Source of the DNA: Rhodocyclaceae bacterium
Lineage (GTDB): Bacteria > Pseudomonadota > Gammaproteobacteria > Burkholderiales > Rhodocyclaceae
Length of the DNA stretch: 64,000 bases
NCBI GenBank assembly: GCA_030824115.1
Contig: JAVBYI010000022.1
Span: 62,001 to 126,000 of the forward strand
Direction of reading: 5' to 3'
The position numbers and the translations under genes are program-made. Shown here in pieces: positions 947-63,054 of the stretch (within the stretch, counting starts at the first letter, position 1; each line of letters starts with the position of its first letter). The notes beneath the pieces are model-generated. The model was not told the DNA's origin, made no database searches, and worked only from the letters and a program-made list of their open reading frames with translations.

Positions 947-972
947 AAAAGTCGGCGGTGGCAAGACGGCAC
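947..972 (+). repeat. Dispersed 25-bp repeat, copy 1
   Basis: Variant reading GTCGGCGGTGGCAAGACGGC preceded by AAAA. It directly abuts the stop codon of the M18 aminopeptidase gene (stop at 973-975) and lies upstream of the PAS sensor gene. Other family members usually read GGCGCTGGCGGGACGG; this copy carries GGTGGCAAGACGG. Confidence 0.85.
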
Positions 973-2331
973 CTAACTTTGGAATGCGGCAGCCAGCGTC
1001 GCAATCATATCGGCATGATCCTGCACACCGGCGCTTTCGCGCAGGCTGTGCATCGCCCACAGCGGTGAACCGACATCCACGCTGGCGATGCCGAGACTGG
1101 CCGCAACCATCGGTCCGATGGTGCTGCCGCAACCGAGATCGCTGCGATGGGCATACTGCTGGCAGGCCACGCCGGCCTGCTCGCACAGGCGCATGAAGCG
1201 CGCGGCGGTTTCCGCATCGGTGGTGTAGCGCTGGTTGGCATTGCGCTTGATGACCGGCCCGCCATTCATGCGCACCTTGTGGCCCGGCTCATAGGCGTTG
1301 GGGAAATTCGGCTGGTAGGCATGCGCCATGTCGGCGCTGATGAAGAAGCTGCGCGCCATGACGCGCCGCGTGTCCTCACCATCCAGCCCGGCCGATAGCC
1401 CGATGCGCGCCAGCACATCCGCAAGGAAACTGCCACCCGCCCCGGTGGCGCTTTCGCTGCCCACTTCTTCATGATCGAACAGGCCGACCACGCAGGTCGC
1501 ACGCGGTGCCGAATTTGCCAATGAGGTTGCCAGCAATGCGGTGGTGGCGGCGTGGCACGATGCCAGGTTGTCGAGTTGGCTGTCCGCAATGAATTCCTCT
1601 TGCGCGCCCCACAGGCGACCGGGCTGCGTGTCTACCACCGCCAGTTCCCAACTGAGCAGATCGGCCGCCTCTACCGCCGCCTGAGTCGTCAGCAGGGCAC
1701 GCAGTTGAGCGTCGGCATCCTCGCCTTCAGCCAGATTTCCAAGAATCAGCGGCAGTTCGGTCTGCTTGTTGAGCTTGAGGCCCTGCTCATTGACATCGCG
1801 GTTCATGTGGATCGCCAGATTCGGCAGGCGTACCAGCGGCTGCTCAAAGCGCAACAGGCGCGTCTCCATCCCGGCGGCGGTGCGTACGACCACGCGTCCG
1901 GCCAAGCTCAGATCGCGATCGGTAAACGTCGCAAGAATCGGCCCGCCATAGATTTCCACCGCCAGCCGCGCCAAGCCGTCGCTGCCAGAGGCCGGCCGGG
2001 GCTTGAGACGCAGGCCGGGCGAATCGGTATGGGCGCCGATGAGGCGCAGACCGCTTTCCACCAGCGGTGTGCTCCCCATCACGAAGGCGATCAGCGAGGC
2101 GCCGCCGCGCGTGACGGTGTAACGCCCGCCCGGCACCAGTTGCCAGCGCGCCGCCTCATCAAGGTGAATAAAACCCTGCGCCGCCAGGCGGGCAGATGTC
2201 GTTGCCACAGCATGCCAGGGACTCGGGCTGGCATCGATAAAGTCGATCAGGTCAAGGGCGGTTTGGCGGTCGGTGCTGCGATCACGGGTCGGCTGAAACA
2301 TGGCGTTACGAAATGGTTGGGGATCGCCCAT
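973..2331 (-). CDS. apeB: M18 family aminopeptidase
   Basis: 452 residues, near the usual 430 for M18 zinc aminopeptidases, which release N-terminal residues from peptides in the cytoplasm. The expected motifs are present: SPWHAV near the start, the metal-ligand motif HTDSPG near residue 97, DHEEVGS in the middle, SCHAATTAL, and a C-terminal GSTIGPM followed by MHSLRE. The start at 2331 has a weak AGG about 6 bases upstream; an alternative ATG at 2301 begins MFQPTRD and has no visible ribosome site. The gene stands alone. Its stop codon touches a dispersed-repeat copy. Confidence 0.93.
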   Translation of the reverse strand: MGDPQPFRNAMFQPTRDRSTDRQTALDLIDFIDASPSPWHAVATTSARLAAQGFIHLDEAARWQLVPGGRYTVTRGGASLIAFVMGSTPLVESGLRLIGAHTDSPGLRLKPRPASGSDGLARLAVEIYGGPILATFTDRDLSLAGRVVVRTAAGMETRLLRFEQPLVRLPNLAIHMNRDVNEQGLKLNKQTELPLILGNLAEGEDADAQLRALLTTQAAVEAADLLSWELAVVDTQPGRLWGAQEEFIADSQLDNLASCHAATTALLATSLANSAPRATCVVGLFDHEEVGSESATGAGGSFLADVLARIGLSAGLDGEDTRRVMARSFFISADMAHAYQPNFPNAYEPGHKVRMNGGPVIKRNANQRYTTDAETAARFMRLCEQAGVACQQYAHRSDLGCGSTIGPMVAASLGIASVDVGSPLWAMHSLRESAGVQDHADMIATLAAAFQS

Positions 2332-2376
2332 CCTACCTCGGTTCAGCCTGGGCTTGGCCGGTGTAAGCTATGCGCC

Positions 2377-2688
2377 ATGAACCGTTCAATTACCGCCCTC
2401 CTCGTTGCCGCCGTCCTCGCCCTGAGCGCAAGCATGACGACGGCTGCCCCCGTGCCCGACAGCCGGCAACTCGAAAAAGAACTGCAAAGCCTGAACTGGG
2501 GACAGTTCAAAGGCGTGATCGAGGCCATTCCCGAAATCCGCCGCGAAGTCGAAAAGTATGGCCCGCTCGGCTGGGAGTACGTCAAGACGAACTACCGCAG
2601 CCACGGCTGGAAAAAGAGTATCGACCGGCTGGACACCGGGGAGAAACAGCGTCTCACCCAGTTGATCCAGCGCGCCCGCAATCAGTGA
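2377..2688 (+). CDS. Small exported protein of unknown function
   Basis: 103 residues. A cleavable signal peptide is clear: MNRSITALLVAAVLALSASMTTA, with likely cleavage after the TTA/AAP region. The mature part, about 78 residues, is charged and probably helical, with LNWGQFKGVIEAIPEIRREV and a WKKSIDRLD segment. No cysteines or catalytic motif are visible and I do not recognise a named family. It is convergent with nhaD, with only 3 bases between the stop codons. It is probably periplasmic. Confidence 0.75.
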   Translation: MNRSITALLVAAVLALSASMTTAAPVPDSRQLEKELQSLNWGQFKGVIEAIPEIRREVEKYGPLGWEYVKTNYRSHGWKKSIDRLDTGEKQRLTQLIQRARNQ

Positions 2689-2691
2689 CGG

Positions 2692-3975: not shown

Positions 3976-4130
3976 GGGTATGGTCTCTCCCGTGCAGCGG
4001 CCCGACCGCACGATAAACCTGTCCGCGGATTGATAGGTGAAATTACGACTGCTTCACGGACACCCGTGGGGAATCTTACAACAGGGTCGCGACAATCATC
4101 AACACATCGCCCCGGTTTCCTTGCTGCCCC

Positions 4131-10128: not shown

Positions 10129-10153
10129 AAAAGTCGGCGCTGGCAAGACGGCA
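10129..10153 (+). repeat. Dispersed 25-bp repeat, copy 2
   Basis: Reads AAAAGTCGGCGCTGGCAAGA then CGGCA. It sits between the icd terminator and the 3' end of the cold-shock gene, in a convergent gap. Confidence 0.9.
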
Positions 10154-15324: not shown

Positions 15325-15349
15325 TGCCGTCCCGCCAGCGCCGACTTTT
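15325..15349 (-). repeat. Dispersed 25-bp repeat, copy 3
   Basis: Reverse-oriented copy reading GCCGTCCCGCCAGCGCCGAC on the plus strand followed by TTTT. It lies in the divergent rhlE/aceA gap. Confidence 0.92.
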
Positions 15350-17184: not shown

Positions 17185-17210
17185 AAAAGTCGGCGCTGGC
17201 GGGACGGCAC
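17185..17210 (+). repeat. Dispersed 25-bp repeat, copy 4
   Basis: Consensus copy (core GTCGGCGCTGGCGGGACGGC preceded by AAAA) in the divergent gap between the S4 gene and the GGDEF/EAL gene. Confidence 0.93.
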
Positions 17211-21207: not shown

Positions 21208-21232
21208 AAATGTCGGCGCTGGGAGGACGGCA
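21208..21232 (+). repeat. Dispersed 25-bp repeat, copy 5
   Basis: Degenerate copy: GTCGGCGCTGGGAGGACGGC with AAAT in place of AAAA. It lies between the fccB-like stop and the lysR start. Confidence 0.82.
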
Positions 21233-26972: not shown

Positions 26973-26998
26973 AAAAGTCGGCGCTGGTGAGACGGCAC
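26973..26998 (+). repeat. Dispersed 25-bp repeat, copy 6
   Basis: Reads AAAAGTCGGCGCTGGTGAGA then CGGCAC, between the aceB stop and its terminator; it would therefore be part of the aceB mRNA 3' end. Confidence 0.9.
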
Positions 26999-28214: not shown

Positions 28215-29535
28215 TCTAAGAAAAGTCGGCGCTGGCAAGACGGCAGATAGCCGCCCAGCTTGGAGGGCATTAAGGCACGGGGCAAGTGCTGGTTACTCGC
28301 CTCGCAAGCGACAGCGCCAGCTTCAGCCGCCAATACAGCAACCAAGCGCATTTCCTGCTTCGCTCAGGGATTGGCTATACGCTCGCATCAAAGACCATCC
28401 AGGAAGCTCCTTGTTAGCCTTGGCATTCACATTGGGCGGCCTGCTAATGCTCGCTCATTTCCAGCACATCGAGTATTTACCAGTACTCGACGTAAGGTCG
28501 GTGACGGGTTTGCTGTTGGGGGTTGCGTTTACAGGTTTGCTTGGCCTAGCTTCATTCGCAATCCTTCTTGCGGTACCAGGAATAGTCCTGCATCTATGCG
28601 TACGTTACAAGGTCATCAACCCTGGCATGGCCGACCTTGACAAAGATACCGGCGAAAAATCAAACCGCAACAAGTCGAAAGGCAATGCACGCGGACTCTT
28701 TGTTCTCTATCTCTACGCAAGTACTGCAATCGCACTAGGACTTCATCTCGGCCTGCCTTTGCTAGGCATTACGGAGACCATTGGCAGGATTGCGATAAAT
28801 ATATTTTTCTTTGGTGTTGGCGTCACCTACCTCGCGGCTGTGTTTTTTAACGTTGTCCTTAGCGCCAAAGCAAAAACGCCGCAACTCCTTCCCCGCATTC
28901 GCTATCGGAAAATCTTCGCGACTTGGCATGGGGCTTGGCTGCTTGGCTTCCTGACATTGCTACAGCTAGTGGTGACATTCATTATGTTTCTGCTCGCCCC
29001 GTTGTTTCGCCTTGAGGCCGGCCTGTTCAACATCATCAATTTTGGCGTAATGATCTCCTTCAGCGGTGCTTTCGGCATTGCTATTCGTCATAACTGGAAA
29101 ACCGCCTCCGTCTCAATTGGCGCCTTGCTTTTATTAGCACTTTTATTATTTGGCGGCTTTACTCAAATAGCCCAATCAGCCGTGCAAATCCTCAAGCTCG
29201 GTAACATTCGCAATGCGTCGCTCATCGTCTCCAGCGCCGGATGTGAAATGCTTGCCAATGCTGCCGGATGCGGAAAATGTTCGGGTACATCACAAAAACA
29301 ATCCCGCACCTTCCGCATTGAGGGGATCGATGTTCTTTCACGCGTTGGGAGTGAATATCTATTGGCGATCAAGCATGGAAATAGCGAAATCCGGCTTCTC
29401 ATCCCCTCGACGGATGTTCTCGCTATTACCTATCCCGCTGCCCCAATAAAGACATCGCGCAAGACACCAACACCTGCCGAAAACTGCCCTCGCATTACAC
29501 CGCTGGACACTAACTCTGAAACGACAATCAAGTGA
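28207..29535 (+). CDS. Multi-pass membrane protein of unknown family
   Basis: About 442 residues; I do not recognise the family. Six or seven hydrophobic helices lie between about residues 60 and 315, followed by a soluble part of about 125 residues with a cysteine cluster (AGCEMLANAAGCGKCSG). Base composition is visibly AT-richer than the neighbours, suggesting transfer. The start is uncertain: ATG 28207 overlaps the fic stop, and this N-terminus would translate a dispersed-repeat copy as KVGAGKTA; no later ATG, GTG or TTG is in frame before the first helix. Its stop is immediately followed by the HrgA-like start, so the two are probably one operon. Confidence 0.72.
   Translation: MSDLRKVGAGKTADSRPAWRALRHGASAGYSPRKRQRQLQPPIQQPSAFPASLRDWLYARIKDHPGSSLLALAFTLGGLLMLAHFQHIEYLPVLDVRSVTGLLLGVAFTGLLGLASFAILLAVPGIVLHLCVRYKVINPGMADLDKDTGEKSNRNKSKGNARGLFVLYLYASTAIALGLHLGLPLLGITETIGRIAINIFFFGVGVTYLAAVFFNVVLSAKAKTPQLLPRIRYRKIFATWHGAWLLGFLTLLQLVVTFIMFLLAPLFRLEAGLFNIINFGVMISFSGAFGIAIRHNWKTASVSIGALLLLALLLFGGFTQIAQSAVQILKLGNIRNASLIVSSAGCEMLANAAGCGKCSGTSQKQSRTFRIEGIDVLSRVGSEYLLAIKHGNSEIRLLIPSTDVLAITYPAAPIKTSRKTPTPAENCPRITPLDTNSETTIK
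28221..28245 (+). repeat. Dispersed 25-bp repeat, copy 7
   Basis: Reads AAAAGTCGGCGCTGGCAAGA then CGGCA, 6 bases after the fic stop and within the likely 5' end of the membrane-protein gene. Confidence 0.9.
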
Positions 29536-30495
29536 ATGGCTATGAAACTTAACCTCCGCCAAACCGTCATCGACTTCCTCAAGTCCCATCCCGAAGAGCG
29601 CTTCAAGGCGCGCCAGATCGCAGAATGGATTTTCGAGAATTTGCGCGAGGCCTGCGAGGAAAAGCGCCAGAACAGTAAACAGGATTTATCTAGCGACGAG
29701 TCGTTCCTGTGGCAGCTTGTTGCCGAAATTAGCTCCAACCGGCCCGAGATTCAGAAGAAGGAGCCGGCCATCCGCACCACCGAGGGACGACCGCGCCTTT
29801 ATTACTACGCAGTAGATGCGAAGTACGACAAAATCCTGCGCCCGGTCGACTTAGCCACATTTGTAGGAGACCATTCATCCAAGAACAAGGCTATTGAGAA
29901 GATTACGGAGCACGACCTATACCCCCTGCTCTGCCGCTACCTCCACGCCGAATTCGGCCTCTACCCCAAGCGCATCGACGAGAAGCGCGCCTCGAACCGT
30001 AACGGCCCCAAGGGCAACATCTGGCTGTTTCCCGACATCGTGGCCATGGAAGACCTGGGCGCCGAATGGCACAAGGACATCCGCGACTGCGTGCGCCACT
30101 ATGGCGATCCGCGTTGCCGGCTGTGGTCATTCGAGGTGAAGCTGAAGCTCAACCGTTCGAACGTGCGCGAGGCGTGGTTCCAGACGGTGTCGAATTCCTC
30201 ATGGTCCAACCAGGGCTATCTGGTGACGGCCGAGGTGGAGGGGGCAGATACGATGAAGGAGCTGCGCCTGCTGGCGGCGGCGCACGGCATTGGGCTGATC
30301 GTGCTGGACGTGGAAGACCCGACGGAGGGCAGCGAGATTCGCATACCCGCCCGCGAGCGCGGCGACGTGGACTGGGACGCCTGCAATCGTCTGGCGGAGG
30401 AAAACGCCGACTTCCGCGACTACATCCGCGCCGTGCGCCAGTTCCACCAGACCGACGACATCAAGCGCGGCGATTGGGATTTGCCAGCGGACTGA
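29536..30495 (+). CDS. HrgA-like HTH and PD-(D/E)XK nuclease-fold protein
   Basis: 319 residues. The N-terminal 80 residues form a helix-turn-helix of the HARE type (RQTVIDFLKSHPEERFKARQIAEWIFE). The middle has a PD-(D/E)XK pattern, FPDIVAME then LWSFEVKLKL (D..ExK), with RSNVREAWFQTVSNSSWSNQGYLV after it. This matches my recollection of the HrgA group (COG2958), one member of which occupies a restriction-gene site in Helicobacter pylori. DNA cleavage is inferred from the motif, not proven. The ATG lies directly after the upstream stop (TGAATG); a second ATG is at 29542. A dispersed repeat follows the stop. Confidence 0.8.
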   Translation: MAMKLNLRQTVIDFLKSHPEERFKARQIAEWIFENLREACEEKRQNSKQDLSSDESFLWQLVAEISSNRPEIQKKEPAIRTTEGRPRLYYYAVDAKYDKILRPVDLATFVGDHSSKNKAIEKITEHDLYPLLCRYLHAEFGLYPKRIDEKRASNRNGPKGNIWLFPDIVAMEDLGAEWHKDIRDCVRHYGDPRCRLWSFEVKLKLNRSNVREAWFQTVSNSSWSNQGYLVTAEVEGADTMKELRLLAAAHGIGLIVLDVEDPTEGSEIRIPARERGDVDWDACNRLAEENADFRDYIRAVRQFHQTDDIKRGDWDLPAD

Positions 30496-30499
30496 CCCG

Positions 30500-30525
30500 A
30501 AAAGTCGGCGCTGGCGGGACGGCAC
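30500..30525 (+). repeat. Dispersed 25-bp repeat, copy 8
   Basis: Consensus core copy 5 bases after the HrgA-like stop codon. Confidence 0.93.
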
Positions 30526-30612
30526 CCCACACCCCAATCTCCGCAAGAATCGGATTGCCCGCCGGCGCCTCCCGCGCCAAACTGCCGGCTGCGATCCTAT
30601 CTACCCCATCCG

Positions 30613-31509
30613 ATGAACCACGCCAGCCTGTTCCGTCTCGTTTCGCTCTCCGCCATCTGGGGTGCGTCCTTTTTGCTGTTGCGCATCGGCGCGCCGGTGC
30701 TGGGGCCGGCATGGCTGATCTTTCTGCGTGTGCTGCTCGCCGCACTGTTCCTGCTGGCGGTCGGCTGCCACCTGGGCAAGGCGCTGGACACCCGGCGCCA
30801 CTGGCGCCACTACCTGGCGCTGGGCTGCTTCAACTCGGCCCTGCCCTTTCTGCTGTTTGCGTATGCAGCAACCGGCATTTCGGCCTCGCTAATGTCCATC
30901 CTGAATGCCACGGCGCCAATCTGGGCGGCGCTGATCGGGGCGCTGTGGACGCGCACGGTGCCAACGGCGAAGGCGGTGGCCGGCATGCTGCTCGGGATTG
31001 CCGGCGTGGGCGTGCTGACGGGCATCGAGGCCAGCGCCTTGCCACCGGGCGGCAATCTGGCAATGGTAGCCGCAGTCGCGGCGGCCTGCTGTTATGGCAT
31101 CGCCACGACGTATGCCAAGTCGGCCAGCCCGGTCGAGCCTTTCGCCAATGCCCACGGCAGCATGTGGGGCGCGACAATCCTGCTGCTGCCATTGCTGCTG
31201 TTCGCGCCGTTGCCGGCGGCAATGCCGGGCGTGGGCATCGTCGCGGCGGTGGTAATACTGGGCGTGGTGTGCAGCGGGTTGGCCTACCTGCTCTACTTCC
31301 GTCTGATCGCCGATCTGGGCGCCACCCCGGCGCTGACCGTGACCTTTCTGATTCCGGTTTTCGGCGTGCTCTGGGGCCATCTGTTCCTCGACGAGGCAGT
31401 GGGCTGGCACACCCTGGCCGGCGCGGCGCTGGTGTTGCTCGGCACGGCGCTAACCACGGGTTTTTCGCCTGCGGCCGTGTTCGCCCTGCGGCGGGAGATG
31501 GCGCGATGA
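30613..31509 (+). CDS. EamA/DMT family transporter
   Basis: 298 residues with ten predicted membrane helices arranged as two EamA repeats (about residues 5-135 and 145-285), including the typical SAIWGASFLLLRI start, NATAPIWAALIGAL and the second-half YLLYFRLIADLGATPALTVTFLIPVFGVLWG. These transporters move amino acids, nucleotides or other small metabolites; the substrate cannot be told here. The stop overlaps the next gene as ATGA. Confidence 0.9.
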   Translation: MNHASLFRLVSLSAIWGASFLLLRIGAPVLGPAWLIFLRVLLAALFLLAVGCHLGKALDTRRHWRHYLALGCFNSALPFLLFAYAATGISASLMSILNATAPIWAALIGALWTRTVPTAKAVAGMLLGIAGVGVLTGIEASALPPGGNLAMVAAVAAACCYGIATTYAKSASPVEPFANAHGSMWGATILLLPLLLFAPLPAAMPGVGIVAAVVILGVVCSGLAYLLYFRLIADLGATPALTVTFLIPVFGVLWGHLFLDEAVGWHTLAGAALVLLGTALTTGFSPAAVFALRREMAR

Positions 31510-32363
31510 ATGGCGGCCTCGACGAGCAGGCGCGACATTACGCCGTGGTAGCCGCCGCCATCGATTACATCCGCCGGCATGCCGCGCGCCAGCCGGGGCT
31601 GGACGAGATCGCTGCCGCCGTGCATATGAGCCCCTTCCATTTCCAGCGCCTGTTCTCGGCCTGGGCCGGGGTTTCTCCCAAGCGTTTTTTGCAGTATCTG
31701 ACCAAGGAACATGCCAAACGCGAACTCTCAGGAACGGGCGATATGCTGGCTGTGGCCGCGCAAGTGGGACTGAGCAGCGGCAGCCGCCTGCATGATCTGA
31801 TGGTGAGTTGCGAGGCCATGTCGCCGGGCGAAATCAAGGCCGGTGGCGCGGGGCTGGAGATTGCCTATGGCCTGGGGCCGTCGCCTTTCGGCATGGCGCT
31901 GATCGCCTGGACCGGGCGCGGGATTTGTCATCTGGCCTTCTGTTCCGGCGACGCGGCGGCGCGGCTGGCGGAGTTGAAAACCGCCTGGCCAAGGGCCGCC
32001 TTCGTGCAGCGCGAGGCCGAAGCAACGGCCCTGCTCGAACGCGTGTTTTCAACGCCAGCGGCAGGTGAACCTTTGCGCCTGCTGCTGCGCGGCACCAACT
32101 TCCAGATCAAGGTCTGGGAAGCCTTGATCCGCGTCGAGCCGGGCCATCTCGCCTCCTATGGCGCACTGGCGCGCCAAGCCGCCGCCCCGCAGGCCCAACG
32201 CGCCGTGGGCAGCGCGCTGGCGGCGAACACGATTGCCTACCTGATCCCCTGCCACCGGGTGATCCGCGAATCGGGCGAGACGGGCAACTACCGCTGGGGA
32301 CCGGAACGCAAGCTGGCGATGCAGGGCTGGGAAGCGGCGCGGGCGGTGGTACCCAAGGCCTGA
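31506..32363 (+). CDS. Ada-like AraC/O6-methylguanine-DNA methyltransferase
   Basis: 285 residues. An AraC-type helix-turn-helix (about residues 15-110) is joined to an alkyltransferase domain with active-site PCHRV near residue 250. It repairs O6-methylguanine by suicide methyl transfer and may act as a regulator. The N-terminal zinc phosphotriester domain of full-length E. coli Ada is absent, so the methyl-sensing step of classical Ada is missing. ATGA overlap with the EamA gene indicates one operon. The stop TGA shares a base with a dispersed repeat. Confidence 0.9.
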   Translation: MNGGLDEQARHYAVVAAAIDYIRRHAARQPGLDEIAAAVHMSPFHFQRLFSAWAGVSPKRFLQYLTKEHAKRELSGTGDMLAVAAQVGLSSGSRLHDLMVSCEAMSPGEIKAGGAGLEIAYGLGPSPFGMALIAWTGRGICHLAFCSGDAAARLAELKTAWPRAAFVQREAEATALLERVFSTPAAGEPLRLLLRGTNFQIKVWEALIRVEPGHLASYGALARQAAAPQAQRAVGSALAANTIAYLIPCHRVIRESGETGNYRWGPERKLAMQGWEAARAVVPKA

Positions 32364-32387
32364 AAAGTCGGCGCTGGCGGGACGGCA
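32363..32387 (+). repeat. Dispersed 25-bp repeat, copy 9
   Basis: Consensus core copy whose first A is the last base of the Ada-like stop codon. Confidence 0.93.
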
Positions 32388-37868: not shown

Positions 37869-39045
37869 TTAGCATCTCCGCAATGTGGCGCACGATGGCG
37901 CGCGCGATTTCAAGCTTGTCGTCGGGCGGCAAGGGGTGCGCCCCGGCCGCATCAAACAAGGTCACCGTATTCGTTTCGCCACCCAGTCCATCCTGCACCA
38001 GATTACCGACGACCAAAGGCAGTTTCTTCGCCTGACGCTTGCCTTCGGCATACTCGGCCAGATTGCGGCTCTCGGCGGCAAAGCCAATGCAGAATGGCGC
38101 ATCCGGCCGCCCTGCAACCTCGGCGAGGATGTCAGGGTTGGCGACCAGTTCCAGCGTCAGTGTCTGGGCACCTTTCTTGATCTTGTGTTCGGCAGATGTG
38201 GTAGGGCGAAAATCGGCAACCGCCGCCACGCCGATAAAAATATCAGCCGGCAGTTGCGCCAGCACGGCCTCGCGCATCTCCAGCGCACTCTGTACATCGA
38301 TCCGCTTTACGCCCGCCGGTGTTGCCAGCCCGACCGGGCCGCAGATCGCCGTCACGTCAGCGCCGACTTCTGCACAGGCGCGTGCCAGCGCAAAGCCCAT
38401 CTTGCCTGAACTGCTGTTGGTAAGACCACGCACGGGATCAAGCGGCTCGAAGGTCGGCCCGGCTGTCAGCACGACCCGTTTGCCCTGCAGCAAATTGGGC
38501 TGAAAGAACGCTATCAAAGCATCGAAAAGTTCTGTCGGCTCCAGCATGCGGCCCTCGCCCACTTCGCCACAGGCCTGTGCGCCACTGGCGGGACCGAGAA
38601 CAGGAATGCCATCGGCACGAAGTTGCGCCACATTGCGCTGCGTCGGCGCGGCATCCCACATCTGCCGATTCATCGCCGGCGCTACCAGTAATGGGCAATC
38701 GCGCGCCAAACACAGTGTCGAGAGCAGATCGTCGGCCATGCCATGCACCAGCTTCGCCATGAAGTTCGCCGTCGCCGGCGCCACCAGGATCGCATCCGCG
38801 CCACGCGTCAGATCGATATGTGCCATGCCGTTGGAAAATCGCTCATCCCACATTGAGGTGAAGACGGGATGACCGGTCAGCGCCTGAAAGGTTTGCGGGC
38901 CGACAAAGCGTGCGCCCGCCTCTGTCATGACGACATCAACCTGTGCGCCCGCCTTGACCAACAGGCGCGCCAATTCACAGGTCTTGTAGGCCGCTACGCC
39001 CCCGGTAACGCCGAGGACAAGTCGCTTGCCTTGCAGTGGATTCAT
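37855..39045 (-). CDS. coaBC: Bifunctional CoaBC (phosphopantothenate-cysteine ligase/decarboxylase)
   Basis: 396 residues. The N-terminal flavoprotein decarboxylase domain (Coa[10 protein letters not shown], catalytic histidine in [15 protein letters not shown]) is followed by the CoaB ligase domain ([24 protein letters not shown], CoaB lysine region KIKK). It makes 4'-phosphopantetheine from 4'-phosphopantothenate and cysteine. Divergent from radC. The stretch [10 protein letters not shown] here partly resembles the dispersed repeat in DNA but is native family sequence. Confidence 0.96.
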
Positions 39046-40706: not shown

Positions 40707-42035
40707 GCGCAGCCCCTGTAACTTGCGGTACAAGGTGCGCTCACTGATGCCCAACTCGGCTGCCAGTGACTTACGATTACCACGATGCTGCGCCAAGCGC
40801 TCGCACAGGGTGGTTGCCTCTAGCGCCGACAGGGTCAAGGGGCCGGTTTTTGACGGCATTGCCGTCCCGCCAGCGCCGACTTTTTCATAGATGACGCCTT
40901 GGACCTCCTCCGGCAAATGCGTTGGCTGAATCTCGTTGCCATCGGTGAGCAAGCTGGCACGCTCCAGCACGTTGCGCAGTTCACGCACGTTGCCGGGGTA
41001 ATCGTAGTGCATCAGGCAGGCCAGCGCCGCCGGCGTCAAACGCAGCGCCCGCCCTGGCGCCACACGGCTCAGCAGCGCCGCGGCCAGCAGGGGGACATCC
41101 TCACGGCGCTCGCGCAAGGCAGGCAGCGCAATCGGAAAGGTATTCAGGCGGTAATACAAATCCTGGCGGAAACGTCCGTCATCCACCATCGTCCGCAAAT
41201 TGCGGTGGGTGGCTGATATCAGCCGAATATCGGCCTTCATGAAATCGCTCGCACCGACACGCCGGAAGGTGCCCGTCTCCAGCAAACGCAGCAGCTTGAC
41301 CTGCATACCGAGCGGAATATCGCCCAACTCATCGAGAAACAGGGTGCCCCCCGACGCTGCCTCGACCAGCCCAATGCGGCGTGCCGAAGCGCCGGTAAAG
41401 GAGCCTTTTTCATGGCCGAACAACTCGCTCTCGAACAGGGTTTCCGTCAGACCGGAGCAATCCACCGCGACGAAGGGGCGCTCGGCACGGCGGCTGGCAT
41501 CATGAATCGCCTTCGCCACCAGCTCCTTGCCGGTGCCCGACTCGCCCTGCAGCATCACCGTCGCATCGGAAGGCGCCACGCGCCCCATCAGTTCCAGCAT
41601 GCGCCGGAAGGCCGGCGCCCGCCCGACCAGCGTTCGCGCCTCGACCAGACCATGCGACACGCCGAGCGGCTCCATCTTTTCAATGAAGTAGGCCACCTGC
41701 CCATCGGCGCCGAGAATGGGTGCCAGTTCGATATTGACGTAAGCCTCGCCTTGCGGCGTGTGATGCAGATGAAGCACGCGCTCACGCTGCCGGGACTTGA
41801 GGCTTTGCTTGAGCGGGCAGGTTTCCCCCGCCTGGTCGCACGGGGCTGCATAGTGGTGCGACACGGCATAGCAGGTCTGTCCGATCAGGGGACGTTGATC
41901 CCCGTAATCGCGCCGATAGGCCTGGTTCGCCGCCACAATGCGGTAATCTGTATCGCACAGGATATGTGGTTCGGTCAGCGTATCCAGATAGGAAAGCAGT
42001 TCGACCGGAGGCTGCGGAGGTGTCAGTTGTGTCAT
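40698..42035 (-). CDS. Sigma-54-dependent transcriptional activator with PAS domain
   Basis: 445 residues: N-terminal PAS-like domain (about 1-125) with a Cys/His cluster (CYAVSHHYAAPC and CPL, residues about 55-74), AAA+ domain with Walker A GESGTGKE, the sigma-54 contact loop in the form GSFTGA, and Walker B GTLFLDELGD; then a Fis-type helix-turn-helix (about 405-440, RKSLAAELGISERTLYRKL). The linker between AAA+ and helix-turn-helix includes residues 385-392 encoded by a dispersed repeat. The Cys/His cluster suggests a redox, metal or reactive-sulfur signal; that is inference. It is divergent from a SLAC1-family transporter. Four TGTCA half-sites surround its start. Confidence 0.92.
   Translation of the reverse strand: MTQLTPPQPPVELLSYLDTLTEPHILCDTDYRIVAANQAYRRDYGDQRPLIGQTCYAVSHHYAAPCDQAGETCPLKQSLKSRQRERVLHLHHTPQGEAYVNIELAPILGADGQVAYFIEKMEPLGVSHGLVEARTLVGRAPAFRRMLELMGRVAPSDATVMLQGESGTGKELVAKAIHDASRRAERPFVAVDCSGLTETLFESELFGHEKGSFTGASARRIGLVEAASGGTLFLDELGDIPLGMQVKLLRLLETGTFRRVGASDFMKADIRLISATHRNLRTMVDDGRFRQDLYYRLNTFPIALPALRERREDVPLLAAALLSRVAPGRALRLTPAALACLMHYDYPGNVRELRNVLERASLLTDGNEIQPTHLPEEVQGVIYEKVGAGGTAMPSKTGPLTLSALEATTLCERLAQHRGNRKSLAAELGISERTLYRKLQGLRCQ
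40860..40885 (-). repeat. Dispersed 25-bp repeat, copy 10 (inside the sigma-54 activator gene)
   Basis: Consensus copy read in gene direction as AAAAAGTCGGCG and onward, translated K-V-G-A-G-G-T-A, in the linker before the DNA-binding domain. Confidence 0.92.
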
Positions 42036-42111: not shown

Positions 42112-43077
42112 ATGAACGCGCCGGCCACTCCCCAACGACTCGAACACTTCCCGGTTTCCTTCTTTGCCAGCGTGATGGGTACCACCGGCTTGGCCATCGC
42201 CTGGAAAAAAGCCCACGCCGTACTCGGCGTCCCCGAAGGCATCGGCTGTGCGCTGACGCTGTGGGCGGCTGCCCTGTTTTCGGTCCTCACCCTGATTTAC
42301 CTGACCAAGCTGTTACGCCACTGGCCGGCCGTGCAGCATGAGTTTGCCCACCCGGTACGCATCAACTTCTTCCCCGCTTTTTCGATTTCCCTGCTGCTGC
42401 TGGCGGCAGCCTTCAGCGAAGGACTACCCGCGTTGGCGACCGGGCTGTGGTCAGTCGGCGCCCTGCTCCATCTCGGTTTCACCGTCACCGTGATGAGCAG
42501 CTGGATTCACCACACCCACTACGATATCAAGCATGCCAACCCGGCCTGGTTCATCCCGGTGGTCGGCAACGTCATCGTGCCGGTGGCCGGCGTCACCCTC
42601 GCCCCACCGGAGATTTCCTGGTTCTTCTTCAGCATCGGGCTGGTGTTCTGGCTGGTGCTGATGACCATCGTCATGTACCGCCTGTTCTTCCATGAGCCGC
42701 TGCCCGAGCGTCTGACGCCGACGCTGTTCATCCTCATCGCGCCGCCCGCCGTTGGTTTCATCGCCTGGGTAAAACTTAATGGCGGCAACATCGACGCCTT
42801 TGCGCGCATCCTCTATTACGTGGCGCTGTTCCTGACGCTGCTGCTCGCGAGCAATGCCTTGCGTTTCTTCCGCGTGCGCTTTTTTCTCTCGGCCTGGGCC
42901 TATTCCTTCCCGCTCGCAGCAATCACCATCGCAACGCTGATCATGGCGGAGTCTCTCGGTGGCCTGTTCATGCCGCTGGCGATGGTGCTGCTCGGCGTGT
43001 TGACGCTGGTACTGGGTTTGCTGACCGCCCGCACGGCCCTTGGGGCCTATCGCGGGGAAATCTGCCAGCCGGAGTAA
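42112..43077 (+). CDS. SLAC1/TDT family anion transporter
   Basis: 321 residues with ten membrane helices, the SLAC1/TehA fold. Conserved positions include FPVSFFASVMGTTGLAIAW and RINFFPAFSISLLLLAAAF, and SWIHHTHYDIKHANPAWFIPVVGNVIVP. Bacterial members export anions such as sulfite or are linked to tellurite resistance. The divergent sigma-54 activator is a likely regulator. AAAGGA precedes the ATG, and a TATAAT near 42081 suggests a sigma-70 promoter. Sulfite as substrate would fit the sulfur-type redox genes nearby but is not shown. Confidence 0.9.
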   Translation: MNAPATPQRLEHFPVSFFASVMGTTGLAIAWKKAHAVLGVPEGIGCALTLWAAALFSVLTLIYLTKLLRHWPAVQHEFAHPVRINFFPAFSISLLLLAAAFSEGLPALATGLWSVGALLHLGFTVTVMSSWIHHTHYDIKHANPAWFIPVVGNVIVPVAGVTLAPPEISWFFFSIGLVFWLVLMTIVMYRLFFHEPLPERLTPTLFILIAPPAVGFIAWVKLNGGNIDAFARILYYVALFLTLLLASNALRFFRVRFFLSAWAYSFPLAAITIATLIMAESLGGLFMPLAMVLLGVLTLVLGLLTARTALGAYRGEICQPE

Positions 43078-43100
43078 ATGTCGGCGTTGGCGGGACGGCG
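43076..43100 (+). repeat. Dispersed 25-bp repeat, copy 11
   Basis: AAATGTCGGCGTTGGCGGGA then CGGCG; overlaps the stop codon of the SLAC1 gene and ends 2 bases before the psd stop, in a convergent gap of only 25 bases. Confidence 0.88.
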
Positions 43101-47029: not shown

Positions 47030-48015
47030 GGGGTGTCTTTCAGTTCAATGTGCGTGACGAGTTGATCGAACACTTCGCCTTTGCGGTCACGATGGCGAAT
47101 CTTGACCGGCAGGCCGGTCTGTTGGTCGATCCAGATTTCGGTGGCATCGTCGGATTTGTCACCCGCGATCAGATAATGGCGGGCGCGAAACTCTCCGTAG
47201 GGCACCACCACCATCTCGACCCCGGCGAGGACGATGCGATAGGCCGCCATCTTACGTCCCGTGGCGATGTTCAGGGTAGTTTCGCCCTGATCGGCAGAAT
47301 GGGCACCGAGCTGATGAAACAGCGCCAACAGATCCTGAGTGCCCGGTAGCAGGGGGGCGGACTGGCCATTACTGAGAAACACCAGCCCCTGCGCAAGGTC
47401 GAAACGCACGCTTTCGCGACGCTTGCCATCGCGCTGTGTTTCAAAGCTATGCGGCCGCAAGCCATGGGTATCGAAGCCACCCGCGCTCACCTGTTCGACC
47501 CGGGCAGGGCGAAACAGCGCCGCCAGCCCGACCGTTTCCGTGATGGCCTTCAGTTCGTACCTTTCGCCGTCGTGCTGCCAGGTATGTATGCTTTCGCCGA
47601 CCAACAGGCCACCCTCGCCACGGGTCACCTGGAAAACAATTCGCCCGGCGCGCGGCCAGCGACTGGCCATCTCGGAGACCAGCACGGGAGCAGACGGTGG
47701 CGCGGGGGCCGGCTCAAAAGTCGGCGCTGGTGGGACGGCATCGGGTTGCGGCGCAAGTTCAGGTGCTGCACTAGGTGCAGGATCGGACGGCACCGCAACC
47801 GGCGACGGGGTCACCGGTGATTTTTTTCTCGGGGATGGCCGGGGTGCGACAGGAACCGGGGCCATCGCAGGCGCTAGCCGCGTTTCCAGCAGGACAGCCT
47901 CCGGTTCGTCATCCAGCCCCGGCAGCCCCCAACCCGGCGCGGTCAAGGCACCGAGATGGATCAGCACGGAAACCACCAGCGCCAGCCATAATGACCGACG
48001 TGCCCCTTGCATCAT
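47026..48015 (-). CDS. DUF3108 domain protein, membrane-anchored
   Basis: 329 residues: one N-terminal membrane helix (about 8-26), a proline-rich linker (about 48-110), and a DUF3108 domain (about 115-325) with a predicted beta-rich structure and IWIDQQTGLPVKIRHRDRKGEVFDQL at the end. Function unknown. Residues 93-100 (AVPPAPTF) of the linker come from a dispersed-repeat copy. ATGA overlap with the rRNA methyltransferase gene and TGATG overlap with purN. Confidence 0.85.
   Translation of the reverse strand: MMQGARRSLWLALVVSVLIHLGALTAPGWGLPGLDDEPEAVLLETRLAPAMAPVPVAPRPSPRKKSPVTPSPVAVPSDPAPSAAPELAPQPDAVPPAPTFEPAPAPPSAPVLVSEMASRWPRAGRIVFQVTRGEGGLLVGESIHTWQHDGERYELKAITETVGLAALFRPARVEQVSAGGFDTHGLRPHSFETQRDGKRRESVRFDLAQGLVFLSNGQSAPLLPGTQDLLALFHQLGAHSADQGETTLNIATGRKMAAYRIVLAGVEMVVVPYGEFRARHYLIAGDKSDDATEIWIDQQTGLPVKIRHRDRKGEVFDQLVTHIELKDTP
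47716..47740 (+). repeat. Dispersed 25-bp repeat, copy 12 (inside the DUF3108 gene)
   Basis: Plus strand reads AAAAGTCGGCGCTGGTGGGA then CGGCA. The gene is on the minus strand and translates it as A-V-P-P-A-P-T-F within a proline-rich linker. Confidence 0.92.
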
Positions 48016-50042: not shown

Positions 50043-50067
50043 AAAAGTCGGCGCTGGCGGGACGGCA
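50043..50067 (+). repeat. Dispersed 25-bp repeat, copy 13
   Basis: Consensus core copy in the divergent dedA/histidine-kinase gap, 14 bases before the shared 46-bp element. Confidence 0.93.
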
Positions 50068-55724: not shown

Positions 55725-55746
55725 AAGCGGGCAAGCGGGGCTTAAA

Positions 55747-57480
55747 ATGCGCGCCTTCATGCCAACCCGATCCCGCATCCACCCTCTGCCCGATCTCCTG
55801 ATCAGCCAGATCGCTGCCGGCGAGGTCGTTGAACGTCCGGCTTCCGTCCTCAAGGAACTGCTTGAAAACAGCCTCGATGCCGGCGCGACGAAGATCGACG
55901 TGCAACTGGAGGAAGGCGGCGTCAGCCTGATCCGCATTGCCGACGATGGCAGCGGCATGCCGCCGGACGACCTACCGCTGGCGCTGGCCCGCCACGCCAC
56001 CAGCAAAATCGCCAGCCTGAGCGATCTGGAAAGCGTGGCGAGCTACGGCTTTCGCGGCGAGGCGCTGGCCTCCATCGCCGCCGTGGCGCGCGTGGACATC
56101 ACCAGCCGCACACAGGACAGTACCCACGCCTGGCGCATCGAGGCGCTGACTGGCGAGATCAAGCCCGCCGCCCTCGCTGCCGGCACCGTCATCAGCGTTG
56201 CCGACCTGTATTTCAATACGCCGGCACGGCGCAAGTTCCTCAAGACCACCGCCACCGAGTACGCCCATTGCGACGATATGCTGGTGCGCATGGCGCAGGC
56301 CCGCCCCGATGTGGCGTTCACTCTCACGCACAATGGACAGGTAAAGCGCCGTCTCGCCAGCGCCGACATTTCGCGCCGGACACGGGAATTGGTCGGCGAA
56401 GCATTCTTCCAGCATGTTCGCAACATCGATGTCGCCGCCGGCCCGCTCACACTGACCGGTTTCGCCGCCCTGCCCGCCTATGCGAAGTCTACGCGCGCCG
56501 AGCAGTTCTTCTACGTCAATGGCCGCTTCGTGCGCGACAAGCTACTGGTCCATGCGGCGCGTGAAGCCTATGCCGACATCCTGCATGGCGCCCACCACCC
56601 CGCCTACGTGCTGTTCCTGACACTCGACCCGGCAACGGTGGACGTCAATGTGCATCCGGCCAAGACCGAGGTGCGCTTCCGCGATGCGCGCGGCATTCAC
56701 CAGTTTATTTTCCACGCCCTGCAGCGTGCCTTGGCGACACCGTTGACCACGGCAAGTCCTAGCCATGCCGTCCCACCAGCGCCGACATTTACGCAACGTC
56801 CCCCCCAGCAAACCAGCTTCGCCATGCGCGAGCCCGCCGTCGCGGCCTATCTCGACTTCGCCCAGCAAGCGATGTCGGCAGCACCCGTGCCAGAGACGGA
56901 TGCCCCCCTCGGCCACGCCCTCGCGCAACTGCATGGCATCTACATCCTCGCCGAGAATGCGCAAGGGCTGGTACTGGTCGACATGCATGCGGCCCACGAA
57001 CGCATCCTCTACGAACGGCTGAAAGCCAGTACCGATGCCGCGCCCGCCATCCAGCCCTTGCTTGTGCCGGTGCTGTTTTCCGCCACGGCCGGCGAGATGG
57101 CCTGCGCCGAAGCCCATCAGGAAACGCTGCAGGTACTCGGCTGCGACATCGCCCCGACAGGCCCTGCGCAACTTGCCGTGCGCGCCGTGCCGGCCCTGCT
57201 GGCCGGCGGCAACGTCGAACAACTGGCGCGCGGCCTGCTCGCCGAGTTGGCCGAACAGCCCGCCAGCCGCGTCTTGCAGGAGCGCCGCAACGAGATTCTC
57301 GCCACGCTCGCCTGCCACGGTGCCGTGCGCGCGAACCGGCAACTCACCTTGCCCGAAATGAATGCGCTGCTGCGCCAGATGGAAGCCACCGAGCGCGCCG
57401 ACCAGTGCAACCACGGCCGCCCCACCTGGGTGCAACTTTCCATCGCCGATCTCGACAAGCTGTTCATGCGCGGGAAATGA
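55747..57480 (+). CDS. mutL: DNA mismatch repair protein MutL
   Basis: 577 residues. GHKL ATPase N-terminus with [35 protein letters not shown] and [12 protein letters not shown]-terminal dimerisation domain from about residue 395. The C-terminal endonuclease motif DQHAxxER appears here as [12 protein letters not shown]. The linker between domains contains A341-F348 (AVPPAPTF), encoded by a dispersed repeat. ATG 55747 or 55759 are both possible. miaA starts within its stop (ATGA), so they are coupled. Confidence 0.96.
56766..56790 (-). repeat. Dispersed 25-bp repeat, copy 14 (inside mutL)
   Basis: TGCCGTCCCACCAGCGCCGA then CATTT on the plus strand, in frame as A-V-P-P-A-P-T-F in the flexible MutL linker. 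Confidence 0.93.
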
Positions 57481-59179: not shown

Positions 59180-59188
59180 GGTGGCTGA

Positions 59189-60232: not shown

Positions 60233-60316
60233 GATCGGAATCCGAAGTTTGCGGCGATAATTCACATACCGCCCGGAAAGGGCGGATTCTAGCGAAATTA
60301 CCTTCCCCGATTCGTC

Positions 60317-61015
60317 TTGACCCAACTGCTTCTCGATCTCCAGCCGGCACAGCCCCCCAGTCTGGACAACTTCATCGCCGGCACCAACCAGGAACTACTG
60401 TCCCGCTTGCGCGCGCTGGCCGAGCCCGGCTGCTGCGATGCCCTTTATCTGTGGGGAGCGGCGGGGAGCGGCAAGACGCACCTGCTCGCCGCCGTCGCCA
60501 GCTTGGCGATGCGAAAGCGCCCGGTGATGTTTCTCGATCGCCGTCCGGCCAGCGCCGACTTTTTCGACCTGCCCGGTGGCCTGCTGGTGGTTGACGACAT
60601 CGACCGTCTTGACGACGATGCGCAGATCGCCCTCTTTCGCCTCTACAACACGGCGCGCGTCATCGGGCTCGGCCTGCTACTGGCCGGCAACCGTCCGCCC
60701 CTGCAGCTTTCCCTGCGCGAAGACCTGCGCACACGTATCGGCCAGACCCTGATCTACGAGGTCAAAACCCTCAACGACGACGAGAAGGCCGCTGCCCTGC
60801 AACGCCATGCACTGGAGCGCGGTCTCAAGATCGATGACAGCCTGCTGCGCTACCTGCTCGCCCACGGCCGGCGCGACCTGCCCGCGCTGATGGCCGTGCT
60901 CGATCACCTTGACCGCACCACCCTGGAACGGCAGCGCCCGGCCACCCTGCCGCTGCTCAAGGAAGCCCTGCAACTTCAACGGATGCCTCAGGAAAATGAA
61001 CCTCGCCCTGTTTGA
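60317..61015 (+). CDS. hda: DnaA regulatory inactivator Hda
   Basis: 232 residues. The N-terminal QLLLDL is the sliding-clamp-binding motif; AAA+ Walker [11 protein letters not shown] (about 48-57), Walker [11 protein letters not shown], arginine-finger region [10 protein letters not shown]. Hda with the clamp stimulates DnaA-ATP hydrolysis to prevent re-initiation. The start is a TTG at 60317, which gives the standard M-x-Q-L-L-L-D-L N-terminus; no ATG fits. Residues 75-83 (RRPASADFF) coincide with a near-exact dispersed-repeat sequence read in a different frame from the other genic copies. Confidence 0.93.
60541..60564 (-). repeat. Dispersed 25-bp repeat, copy 15 (inside hda)
   Basis: CCGTCCGGCCAGCGCCGACT then TTTT differs from the reverse consensus at one of 24 bases. 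It is read in a frame giving R-P-A-S-A-D-F-F. The flanking bases differ from the other copies, so chance or native origin cannot be fully excluded. Confidence 0.65.
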
Positions 61016-61658
61016 TCTCGACAATACCCTGCTCGCCGGCGACTCGGACTTCGAGTGGGCACAATTCCTCATCTCGAAAGGTGTGCTCGATCGCGAAGTG
61101 CATGAAGCAAAGAATCAGGCCTTCTACGACGACTACAAGGCCGGCACCCTCGACATCCACGCCTTCCTCGAATTCCAGCTCGCGCCGCTGGCACGCCATG
61201 CGCGCACCGAACTCGATGCCTGGCATCGCGAATTTGTCGCCACGCGCATCCGCCCGATCATTGGCGCGGCAGCCCGCTCACTGGTCCAGCGTCATCTGGA
61301 TGCCGGCGACCTGTGTGCCATCGTCACCGCCACCAACAGTTTTGTTACCGGGCCGATCTGCCACGAGTTTGGCATCCCCCACCTGATTGCCACTATCCCG
61401 GCACAGGAAGACGGGCAATTTACCGGTGCGCCGCGCGGCCTGCCGGCGTTTCGCGAAGGAAAAATTGTCCGCGTCGATGCCTGGCTGGAGTCACTCGGCC
61501 TGTGGTGGGGCGCCTTCGAACAAAGCTGGTTCTACAGCGATTCGCTCAACGACCTGCCGTTGCTGGCCAAGGTCAGCCATCCGGTCGCTGTCGATCCCGA
61601 CGACACCCTGCGCGCCCATGCCGCCGCCCACGGCTGGCCAGTCCTAAGCTTGAGATGA
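60996..61658 (+). CDS. HAD-IB family phosphatase (SerB-like)
   Basis: 220 residues. HAD motif I DLDNTL (nucleophile D), motif II in VTATNSF, and motif III in FYSDSLNDLPLL. The cap region (EWAQFLISKGV) and short size match the HAD-IB group that includes phosphoserine phosphatase-like and CicA-like enzymes; the substrate is unknown. ATG 60996 overlaps the hda 3' end by 20 bases, so it is probably co-transcribed with hda. Confidence 0.9.
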   Translation: MNLALFDLDNTLLAGDSDFEWAQFLISKGVLDREVHEAKNQAFYDDYKAGTLDIHAFLEFQLAPLARHARTELDAWHREFVATRIRPIIGAAARSLVQRHLDAGDLCAIVTATNSFVTGPICHEFGIPHLIATIPAQEDGQFTGAPRGLPAFREGKIVRVDAWLESLGLWWGAFEQSWFYSDSLNDLPLLAKVSHPVAVDPDDTLRAHAAAHGWPVLSLR

Positions 61659-61701
61659 GGTCTTCGGGTATGATCACGGCCTCCCCGTTAGCGACAAGCG
61701 C

Positions 61702-63054
61702 ATGATCCGCAAGCTCCTGCGCCGCGTATTCAAACGCGGCGAACCTACCCCCCACGCAGTTGAAACCATCGGCCCCAGCCAGCACGGCATTCGTCCAGAG
61801 GCTGTCTCGTCGGCCGCACGCCGCACCTGCGAAGGCTTGCAACAAGCCGGCTACCGCGCCTATGTGGTCGGCGGTGCCGTGCGCGACCTGATCGCCGGGA
61901 TCGAGCCCAAGGATTTCGACGTCGCCACCGACGCCACCCCCGAGCAGGTGCGTGCCCAGTTCCGCCGCTCACGCGTCATCGGTCGCCGCTTCCAGATCGT
62001 GCACGTGATGTTCGGTGCCGAAACCATCGAGGTATCGACCTTCCGCGCCGCCCACGACGCCGACACGCTCAAGGATGAACATGGCCGCGTGCTGCGCGAC
62101 AATGTCTGGGGCAACATGGAAGAGGACGCCGCACGACGCGACTTCACCGTCAATGCGCTGTACTACGATCCGGCCACCGGCAAGGTCTTCGATTACCACC
62201 ACGGCGTGCGCGACTTGCAAAGGAAAACCCTGCGCATGATCGGCGATCCGCGTGCACGCTATCGCGAAGACCCGGTGCGCATGCTGCGTGCCGTGCGCCT
62301 CGCGGCCAAGCTCGATCTGCGGCTCGATCCGCAGGTGCAGGCCCCGATTCGCGAAATGGCCGAACTGATCGAGAACGTGCCCGCCGCGCGTCTCTTCGAC
62401 GAAATGCTCAAGCTGCTGTTCTCCGGCCACGCCGTCGAATGCGTCAAGCGTCTGCGCGAGGACGGGCTGCACCACGGTCTGTTGCCTCTGCTCGACGTCA
62501 TCCTCGAACAGCCCCTGGGTGAAAAATTTGTCATGCTGGCGCTGGCCGATACTGATCGGCGCATCCGCGAGGGCAAGCGCACCTCGCCCGGTTTCCTGTT
62601 CGCCACGCTGCTGTGGCACGAAGTGCTGTCCAACTGGGAAACGCGCAAGAAAAACGGCCAACTGCCGGTGCCCGCGCTCCACGAAGCGATGGACGAGGTG
62701 CTTGATACGCAGGGCGAAAAACTCGCCATCACACGCCGCATCGCCGGCGACATCAAGGATGTCTGGCTGCTGCAGCCACGCTTCGAGAAGCGCAGTGGAC
62801 GCATGCCTTTCCGCCTGATTGAACAGCCGCGCTTCCGCGCCGCGTGGGATTTTCTGCGCTTGCGCGCCGAGAGCGGCGAGGCGCCGCAGGAACTGTCCGA
62901 CTGGTGGGCTGCCTTCGAACAGGCCGATAACGCCGAGCGCGAAGCGATGCTCAAGCCCGACACGGGGCCGAAGAAGCGGCGGCGGCGCACCCGGGTCCGC
63001 AAACCCGGCGAGGACGCGACCAATGCCGTCCCGCCAGCGCCGACATTTGAGTAA
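61702..63054 (+). CDS. pcnB: Poly(A) polymerase I
   Basis: 450 residues. Nucleotidyltransferase core: VVGGAVRDLIAG, DFDVATDATPEQV with catalytic aspartates, ETIEVSTFRA, RRDFTVNAL, and RYREDPVRMLRAVRLAAKLD. The PcnB-type arginine-rich N-terminus (RKLLRRVFKRG) and basic C-terminal tail KKRRRRTRVRK separate it from CCA-adding enzymes. The last nine residues, A442-E450 (AVPPAPTFE), come from a dispersed repeat, and the stop follows immediately. Its mRNA-decay role is polyadenylation of RNAs. Confidence 0.95.
   Translation: MIRKLLRRVFKRGEPTPHAVETIGPSQHGIRPEAVSSAARRTCEGLQQAGYRAYVVGGAVRDLIAGIEPKDFDVATDATPEQVRAQFRRSRVIGRRFQIVHVMFGAETIEVSTFRAAHDADTLKDEHGRVLRDNVWGNMEEDAARRDFTVNALYYDPATGKVFDYHHGVRDLQRKTLRMIGDPRARYREDPVRMLRAVRLAAKLDLRLDPQVQAPIREMAELIENVPAARLFDEMLKLLFSGHAVECVKRLREDGLHHGLLPLLDVILEQPLGEKFVMLALADTDRRIREGKRTSPGFLFATLLWHEVLSNWETRKKNGQLPVPALHEAMDEVLDTQGEKLAITRRIAGDIKDVWLLQPRFEKRSGRMPFRLIEQPRFRAAWDFLRLRAESGEAPQELSDWWAAFEQADNAEREAMLKPDTGPKKRRRRTRVRKPGEDATNAVPPAPTFE
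63024..63048 (-). repeat. Dispersed 25-bp repeat, copy 16 (3' end of pcnB)
   Basis: TGCCGTCCCGCCAGCGCCGA then CATTT, in frame as A-V-P-P-A-P-T-F, followed by GAG TAA. It is likely a C-terminal extension gained when the repeat inserted. Confidence 0.93.

Follow-up and report, generated by a model that had tools for sequence, protein, structure and literature searches.

A dispersed 25-bp word in Rhodocyclaceae genomes as a candidate DNA uptake tag

The genome of a Rhodocyclaceae bacterium (assembly GCA_030824115.1) is interspersed with hundreds of copies of an asymmetric 25-bp word, 18 of which lie in the 64,000-nucleotide stretch of contig JAVBYI010000022.1 (positions 62,001 to 126,000 of the forward strand; hereafter the window) analyzed here. 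This genome-wide word is real and unusual, and its behavior is not that of a transposable repeat. The explanation that we favor, and consider reasonably probable from comparative analysis, is that it is a DNA uptake tag accumulated by biased transformation, in what would be a third bacterial family with such a system and with a longer, bipartite word.

Under this explanation, type IV pili would serve the carriers for the uptake of free DNA, and a receptor would favor the 25-bp word. Because the imported DNA of kin would recombine into the chromosome, point mutations improving the word would be imported more often and accumulate, amounting to a molecular drive. The expected outcome would be hundreds of copies in both orientations, within and between genes, with dialects in different lineages and none in recently acquired DNA. 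The word matches the set of properties ascribed to uptake sequences in the literature; hence, we infer that biased uptake coupled to recombination is the drive, with DNA uptake as the likely driving step and a putative pilin-type receptor reading the word.

Sequence, copy number and shape of the word

Allowing up to 3 mismatches, the window has 18 occurrences of the 20-bp core of the word, whereas 100 dinucleotide shuffles gave 0.01 on average. An earlier description of this DNA, made without database searches (the sequence-only reading), had claimed a repeat far above chance at 16 positions. All of these were confirmed, while two further copies on the minus strand, at 38347 and 56347, had been overlooked. 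It had also estimated many hundreds of copies genome-wide and proposed a scan of the whole genome. Run over the 2,999,174 bp of the assembly, that scan recovered 611 copies of the core with at most 2 mismatches (312 forward and 299 reverse) and none of the reversed pattern; the estimate was therefore right.

A profile of 58 copies from this genome shows that the full word, AAA[A/T]GTCGGCGCTGGCGGGACGGCA, is laid out as AAA, then A or T, then GTCGGCGCTGGCGGGACGGC, and then A. Its edges are sharp, with no conserved signal in the flanks outside the 25 bp, and the most variable positions of the core are the three that follow GCTGG. When 400 kb of contig C1 of the same genome were ranked for over-represented 10-, 12- and 14-mers with no prior assumption, the top-ranked ones were all supplied by the word. 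In a 484-kb sample of the genome the mismatch histogram is bimodal: 96 copies have 0-4 mismatches and 22 have 5-7, after which the counts climb from 28 at 8 into the background. For the reversed word, the first matches, 4 in number, appear at 7. Single-strand fold energies of the word (-5.5 and -2.6 kcal/mol) point to no strong hairpin, in keeping with the earlier statement that it contains no clear palindrome, and no flank duplication is visible at the 18 window copies. The sequence-only reading was likewise right in our judgment to set the repeat apart from REP (repetitive extragenic palindromic) elements, CRISPR (clustered regularly interspaced short palindromic repeats) and ordinary MITEs (miniature inverted-repeat transposable elements).

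Placement, orientation and spacing

The 484-kb sample was also used to examine genic placement, with copies of up to 4 mismatches and crudely called genes. Of its 96 copies (about 200 per Mb overall), 66 lie inside genes. The density is 163 per Mb in coding and 374 per Mb in noncoding DNA, that is, 2.3 times denser outside genes. Four of the six possible frames hold 64 of the 66 in-gene copies, encoding AVPPAPTF (25 copies), KVGAGGTA (20), RRPASADF (11) and KSALAGR (8). The in-gene copies speak against insertion, since an insert of 25 bp, not being a multiple of 3, would shift the reading frame.

The sequence-only reading had placed many copies within a few bases of stop codons. This holds for six of the 18 window copies (26973, 28221, 30500, 32363, 43076 and 63024), which lie within about 10 bp of the stops of listed open reading frames (ORFs). 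Combined with the higher density outside genes, it is what one might expect of a transcription terminator or another regulatory element at gene ends. Across the larger sample, however, just 4 of the 66 in-gene copies are within 60 bp of a stop; moreover, copies occur on both strands and the hairpin is weak. We rejected the terminator mainly on account of the in-gene copies, and a regulatory role at gene ends is accordingly very improbable.

Chi and KOPS (FtsK-orienting polar sequences) are motifs with hundreds of copies per genome and selection at the DNA level, which are short and strand-biased with respect to replication. The present word shares their abundance and their conservation at the DNA level but is 25 bp long and shows no replichore polarity in G017, a single-contig genome from the same genus. 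There, 20 evenly spaced 20-kb stretches were sampled, the first ten mostly of positive and the other ten mostly of negative GC skew, and plus and minus copies number 17 and 17 in the first half and 16 and 15 in the second. A replication-polar motif of the KOPS or Chi type was rejected on this lack of strand skew.

Short spacings are avoided: the 70 copies on C1 include no spacing below 500 bp, where 5.8 would be expected. No pair of copies in the 484-kb sample lies within 200 bp, and consequently there are no inverted pairs. As a separate observation, in the genome G001 copies recur exactly 54 bp apart (L159 2967-3099; C1 775575/775629 and 1840847/1840901) in the manner of a small tandem repeat.

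At the other extreme, one 400-kb stretch of C1 has two motif deserts of 45.4 and 41.9 kb, the probability of so large a largest gap being 0.014. Their GC fractions are 0.50 and 0.57, compared with 0.607 elsewhere. Scanning 10 of the 40 ORFs in the first desert recovered metabolic genes, among them three DegT-type sugar aminotransferases and an epimerase. In the second, 10 of 36 ORFs were scanned, yielding GmrSD, a Mu/TniA-type transposase, TniQ, JetD, an SbcC-like ATPase and an RND (resistance-nodulation-division) efflux system; the gene at its edge is an ordinary one. Both deserts look probably acquired. The region of the second (loci L172-L174, at about 79-112 kb of C1) includes, in JetD, a component of Wadjet.

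Origin of copies and conservation of the word

The sequence-only reading had proposed comparing orthologous loci, and had named the fixation of all copies at the same sites in distant relatives as an outcome that would speak against it. We made this comparison in both directions with G011, the genus member best matching this region. Of 26 copies in 84 kb of our genome, 11 lie in alignable blocks and 11 of 11 are present in G011; conversely, 11 of 38 G011 copies lie in such blocks, and again all 11 are present in our genome. The remaining 15 and 27 copies, respectively, have no alignment across them, and gains or losses at these are possible. Sites in common with the relative were thus found for 11 window copies, the other 7 of the 18 not being comparable with G011.

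The states with and without the word can be aligned in coaBC (window position 38347), where the query G012 has the word, as do the window's genome, G011, G010, G013 and L043. The 32 partner rows, in which some genomes are represented twice, comprise 7 with the word, 23 that are gap-free and lack it (10 to 15 mismatches) and 2 with two gap columns, both from one genome. The substitutions that build the word alter residues of the protein. A comparable site lies in a gene upstream of malate synthase, labeled LysR-type from its sequence and not by a family search. Its 56 partner rows include 9 with the word, 6 intermediates and 26 that are gap-free and wordless, among them the window's own genome; the other 15 have between 1 and 4 gap columns. 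At both these sites the word was built stepwise by point substitution in aligned coding sequence. At 40860 (sigma-54 regulator gene) and 47716 (DUF3108 gene), the alignments of relatives other than G011 are gapped and uninformative.

The earlier premise that the repeat "spread" is not upheld in view of the copies within ORFs, the gap-free wordless alleles of coaBC and the LysR-type gene, and the sites common to G011. The same observations, along with the in-frame state of genic copies and the lack of flank duplication, tell against a short MITE- or REP-like mobile element inserting as 25 bp. Such an element would account for the many near-identical, sharp-edged copies, and exactly 25 gap columns are seen in 6 of the 330 gapped pairs of a bulk ORF comparison discussed below. 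Membership of the REP or MITE classes was rejected in view of the gap-free absent alleles at the two gene sites, the common sites and the weak fold, and we regard insertion of a mobile element as almost certainly not the source of the copies.

The word is conserved at the DNA level against one relative, G011. In 10 gap-free pairs its identity is 0.93 as opposed to 0.81 in the flanks, being higher in the word in 10 of 10, while 12 random sites, a small control set, gave 0.86 and 0.88. Third codon positions are identical to G011 at 48 of 52 positions inside the word versus 1410 of 1916 outside it (Fisher p=0.001; six copies in five genes). This conservation and the gradual substitutional birth through intermediates need just some drive, which biased gene conversion, or another recombination-linked process operating without extracellular uptake, might furnish. 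However, the absence of the word from two probable islands and its dialects (see below) fit uptake better, and the fact that we know of no conversion machinery favoring a 25-bp word also counts against such a process, which we deem improbable.

The word could, alternatively, be the binding site of an intracellular protein acting on the nucleoid or in chromosome segregation, repair or recombination, with each copy kept by selection. The conservation against G011 and the avoidance of short spacings on C1 would both follow from this. Yet there is no replication polarity of the kind seen in KOPS or Chi, and about two-thirds of the copies are inside genes, unlike promoter sites. Further, the profile amounts to about 43 bits, a value inflated by the use of mismatch-selected copies, where by our reckoning about 22 would suffice to specify a unique site in a genome of this size. 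The absence from probably acquired DNA and the dialects also argue against it, although both could also be features of a binding site that changes slowly. On balance, we view such a binding site as a credible but rather unlikely explanation.

Carriers and dialects

Named relatives retrieved with the malate synthase were mostly Rhodocyclaceae and Sulfuritalea-like betaproteobacteria. A search of 61 genomes covered 18 further members of the genus, of which 17 contain between 149 and 658 copies. The remaining member, G005 (87% complete), has 0 copies, and no strong word emerged from a 142-kb k-mer scan of it. As it does have ComEC, DprA and pilin matches, G005 offers a natural contrast case. Across the family (199 genomes, 68 genera), at least 20 copies were found in 22 genomes from 7 genera, with the remainder having at most 17; in one of the carrier genera, g47, one genome has 26 copies and its congener 1. 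Outside the family, the exact pattern AAAAGTCGNCGCTGG, which would miss other dialects, occurs at most 5 times (an order-level search of 300 genomes, 291 of them from other families). A malate synthase gene tree of 81 rows requires 6 changes to explain the 31 whose locus includes a copy, compared with a mean of 25 for shuffled labels; the negative labels are uncertain because each genome is represented by one locus.

The carriers show distinct dialects. In G086, from another genus, the word takes the form AAAAGTCGACGCTGG, four variable bases and ACGG; there are 17 exact GTCGACGCTGG cores in 124 kb, and the word supplies the top-ranked 12- and 14-mers of this genome. In G017 the edges are shifted, with the first A lost and a trailing C gained. 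Samples of 100 kb each (14 to 27 copies, up to 7 mismatches) indicate that G026 mixes GTCGGT and GTCGGC, that G187 tends to end in GGtgA.ACGgCg, and that G110 and G087 retain the core. The parts persisting across dialects are TCG..GCTGG and ACGG, and the word therefore looks bipartite. G097 has the same word in 44 kb of contigs picked for carrying it; no clear dialect was found in the small k-mer samples of G154 (78 kb), G047 (96 kb), G096 (37 kb) and G064 (20 kb).

Certain motif-poor genomes have their copies clustered on single contigs or regions (G097:C104, G123:C1 and G168:C1), which might be imported segments or misbinned contigs. G086 additionally has a second repeated word with GTGTTCCCCGTG (L199-L208), which may be a CRISPR repeat and of which 124 kb contain nine exact copies. 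A collection of viral contigs yielded 53 stretches (L292-L344) with an exact degenerate match, of which 27 are single-copy loci at up to 5 mismatches. At the same threshold L294 and L339 have 6 and 5 copies, respectively. The stretches may be host DNA, prophage edges or tagged phages.

Competence genes and the weighing of a proposed uptake tag

In our genome, the prepilin-type genes that pass the Pfam cut-off number 12 (13 matches), and ComEC and DprA are encoded as well. Such genes are near-universal in the sets of genomes searched: ComEC was detected in 47 of 48 genomes, DprA in 31 of 32, PilE-like pilins in 48 of 48 and FimT-like pilins, with paralogues not told apart, in 31 of 32. They therefore neither support nor exclude uptake. 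In sequence comparisons, the PilE-like pilin matches type IV pilins in general.

Several observations weigh against an uptake tag. None of these four near-universal components separates carriers from non-carriers or from the copy-free G005, and no PDB chain labeled ComP is among the PilE-like pilin matches. ComEA (TIGR00426) is over the cut-off in 8 of 32 genomes, namely 2 of 17 carriers (both from genus g88) and 6 of 15 others. Likewise, no small ComEA-like ORF over the PF12836 cut-off was found in 11 of 16 genomes, 10 of which are carriers. Among the PF12836-negative genomes are the single-contig G017 and G110; in G001 a single weak match falls below the cut-off, and the remaining matches are ORFs of about 800 residues that we take to be Tex-like. 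The missing ComEA of most carriers tested and the non-discriminating competence genes would also suit the binding site of an intracellular protein. The spacing on C1 is uneven, its standard deviation (7612 bp) exceeding the mean (5723 bp) because of the motif deserts. The word is also longer and its density lower than that of the DNA uptake sequence (DUS) of Neisseriaceae: about 200 per Mb here versus about 1900 10-mers per pathogenic Neisseria genome, as given in the consulted part of PMC3630211. The lack of inverted pairs likewise counts against an uptake tag.

To these must be added the bulk ORF comparison. Only 567 of 897 motif pairs are gap-free as opposed to 5163 of 5708 control pairs, and over the 897 pairs identity is 0.685 in the word and 0.722 in the flanks, the control values being 0.780 and 0.783. 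The 897 pairs break down into 257 with the word, 55 intermediate, 255 gap-free without it and 330 gapped. As this comparison takes all stop-to-stop ORFs as a stand-in for genes, which in GC-rich DNA mixes coding and noncoding copies, and pools distant wordless relatives, we do not take it as decisive. Nevertheless, its result as such lends our reading no support, and it means that the clean picture of substitution is shown for the two sites in identified genes, on which we rely, and not for all copies.

With these points taken into account, we still favor an uptake tag. The fuller scenario is more tentative, having in our estimate somewhat less than an even chance of being right. It envisages a third origin of self-DNA tagging, in several mostly uncultured Rhodocyclaceae genera, with a 25-bp bipartite tag in genus-specific dialects, transformation restricted to kin by way of a putative receptor, no canonical ComEA, and a drive powerful enough to change residues of housekeeping enzymes, CoaBC among them. 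If true, a third, environmental family with both dialects and tag-free relatives would make it possible to ask how tags start, change and vanish. It would also lead one to expect natural transformation in bacteria that are known largely through metagenomics, and it would give their genomes a built-in marker of DNA acquired recently.

Individual copies of the window

Mismatches of the window copies are scored here against the 25-mer. The first is a plus-strand copy at 947..971 (3 mismatches; common to G011). The next (10129..10153, plus; 2 mismatches; common to G011) lies 3' of isocitrate dehydrogenase, and a perfect minus-strand copy (15325..15349), also common to G011, lies in the intergenic gap between a helicase and isocitrate lyase. 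Upstream of a GGDEF/EAL gene is a perfect plus-strand copy (17185..17209) that is kept in G011 though the near flanks are hardly alignable. A copy at 21208..21232 (plus; 3 mismatches) is outside the G011-aligned blocks, whereas the one directly past the malate synthase stop (26973..26997, plus; 2 mismatches) has graded versions and small gaps in relatives. In the same region (6512-26964), two isocitrate dehydrogenases of different type adjoin, with isocitrate lyase and malate synthase A nearby.

Three plus-strand copies are found just beyond or across gene ends: directly past a Fic gene (28221..28245; 2 mismatches), directly past ORF 29536-30495 (30500..30524; perfect, its context uncertain as ORFs overlap here) and over the stop of ORF 30066-32363 (32363..32387; perfect). 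The coaBC copy (38347..38371, minus; 4 mismatches), in a gene identified by the Pfam DFP/Flavoprotein domain, is the one with gap-free substitution described above. A perfect minus-strand copy in the sigma-54 regulator gene (40860..40884) encodes KVGAGGTA. The stop of an SLAC1-like gene has a plus-strand copy (43076..43100; 3 mismatches; common to G011), and the DUF3108 gene an antisense one (47716..47740, plus; 1 mismatch; common to G011). A perfect plus-strand copy at 50043..50067 is outside the G011-aligned blocks. The last four, all on the minus strand and antisense to their genes, comprise two in mutL (56347..56371 with 3 mismatches and 56766..56790 with 2), one in an hda-like gene (60539..60563; 2 mismatches) and one at the 3' end of the poly(A) polymerase gene (63024..63048; 1 mismatch); the first three are common to G011 and the last is outside the aligned blocks.

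Comparison with known systems

Among the matches listed in literature searches, nothing was found on this repeat in Rhodocyclaceae, and neither the 20-mer nor its complement appeared in the text of the papers listed. Combining "DNA uptake sequence" with Rhodocyclaceae returned no paper, no search on competence alone having been made. In the parts of the sources consulted, sequence-tagged uptake is named for Neisseriaceae and Pasteurellaceae alone (2016 review, PMC5031613; 2013 paper, PMC3630211), and the present word, being different and longer, matches none of the DUS or uptake signal sequence (USS) words quoted in the former. The GACGGCA near its end is also part of the neisserial DUS when that is read on the opposite strand (PMC5031613, same part), and its left end, AAAAGTCGG, resembles the USS; both are probably chance.

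The DUS of Neisseriaceae, for which ComP is the receptor, is described in the consulted parts of PMC3630211 and PMC1939737 as the most over-represented word of the genome, occurring in and between genes, with lineage dialects that keep a fixed CTG. Gaps in it have been used to locate genomic islands (PMC7371117, in part). The present word resembles it in being over-represented, both genic and intergenic, differentiated into dialects and missing from probable islands, and the CTG of the DUS is also part of the conserved block here. It differs in being a bipartite word of 25 bp rather than 10-12 bp, in its sequence and family, and in that ComEA is missing in most carriers tested.

The USS of Pasteurellaceae is the 9-nt AAGTGCGGT (PMC5031613, in part), from which the 25-bp word differs in length as well as in belonging to another family. 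Uptake sequences in general are characterized, in the portion of PMC1939737 consulted, as non-palindromic, in excess over expectation in noncoding DNA, without orientation bias and subject to a gradual point-mutation drive; 65% of H. influenzae USS copies and 35% of N. gonorrhoeae DUS copies are in ORFs. Like the USS, the word of Rhodocyclaceae is asymmetric, shows no orientation bias and is consistent with a point-mutation drive, and its genic fraction (66 of 96) stands beside the 65% of H. influenzae.

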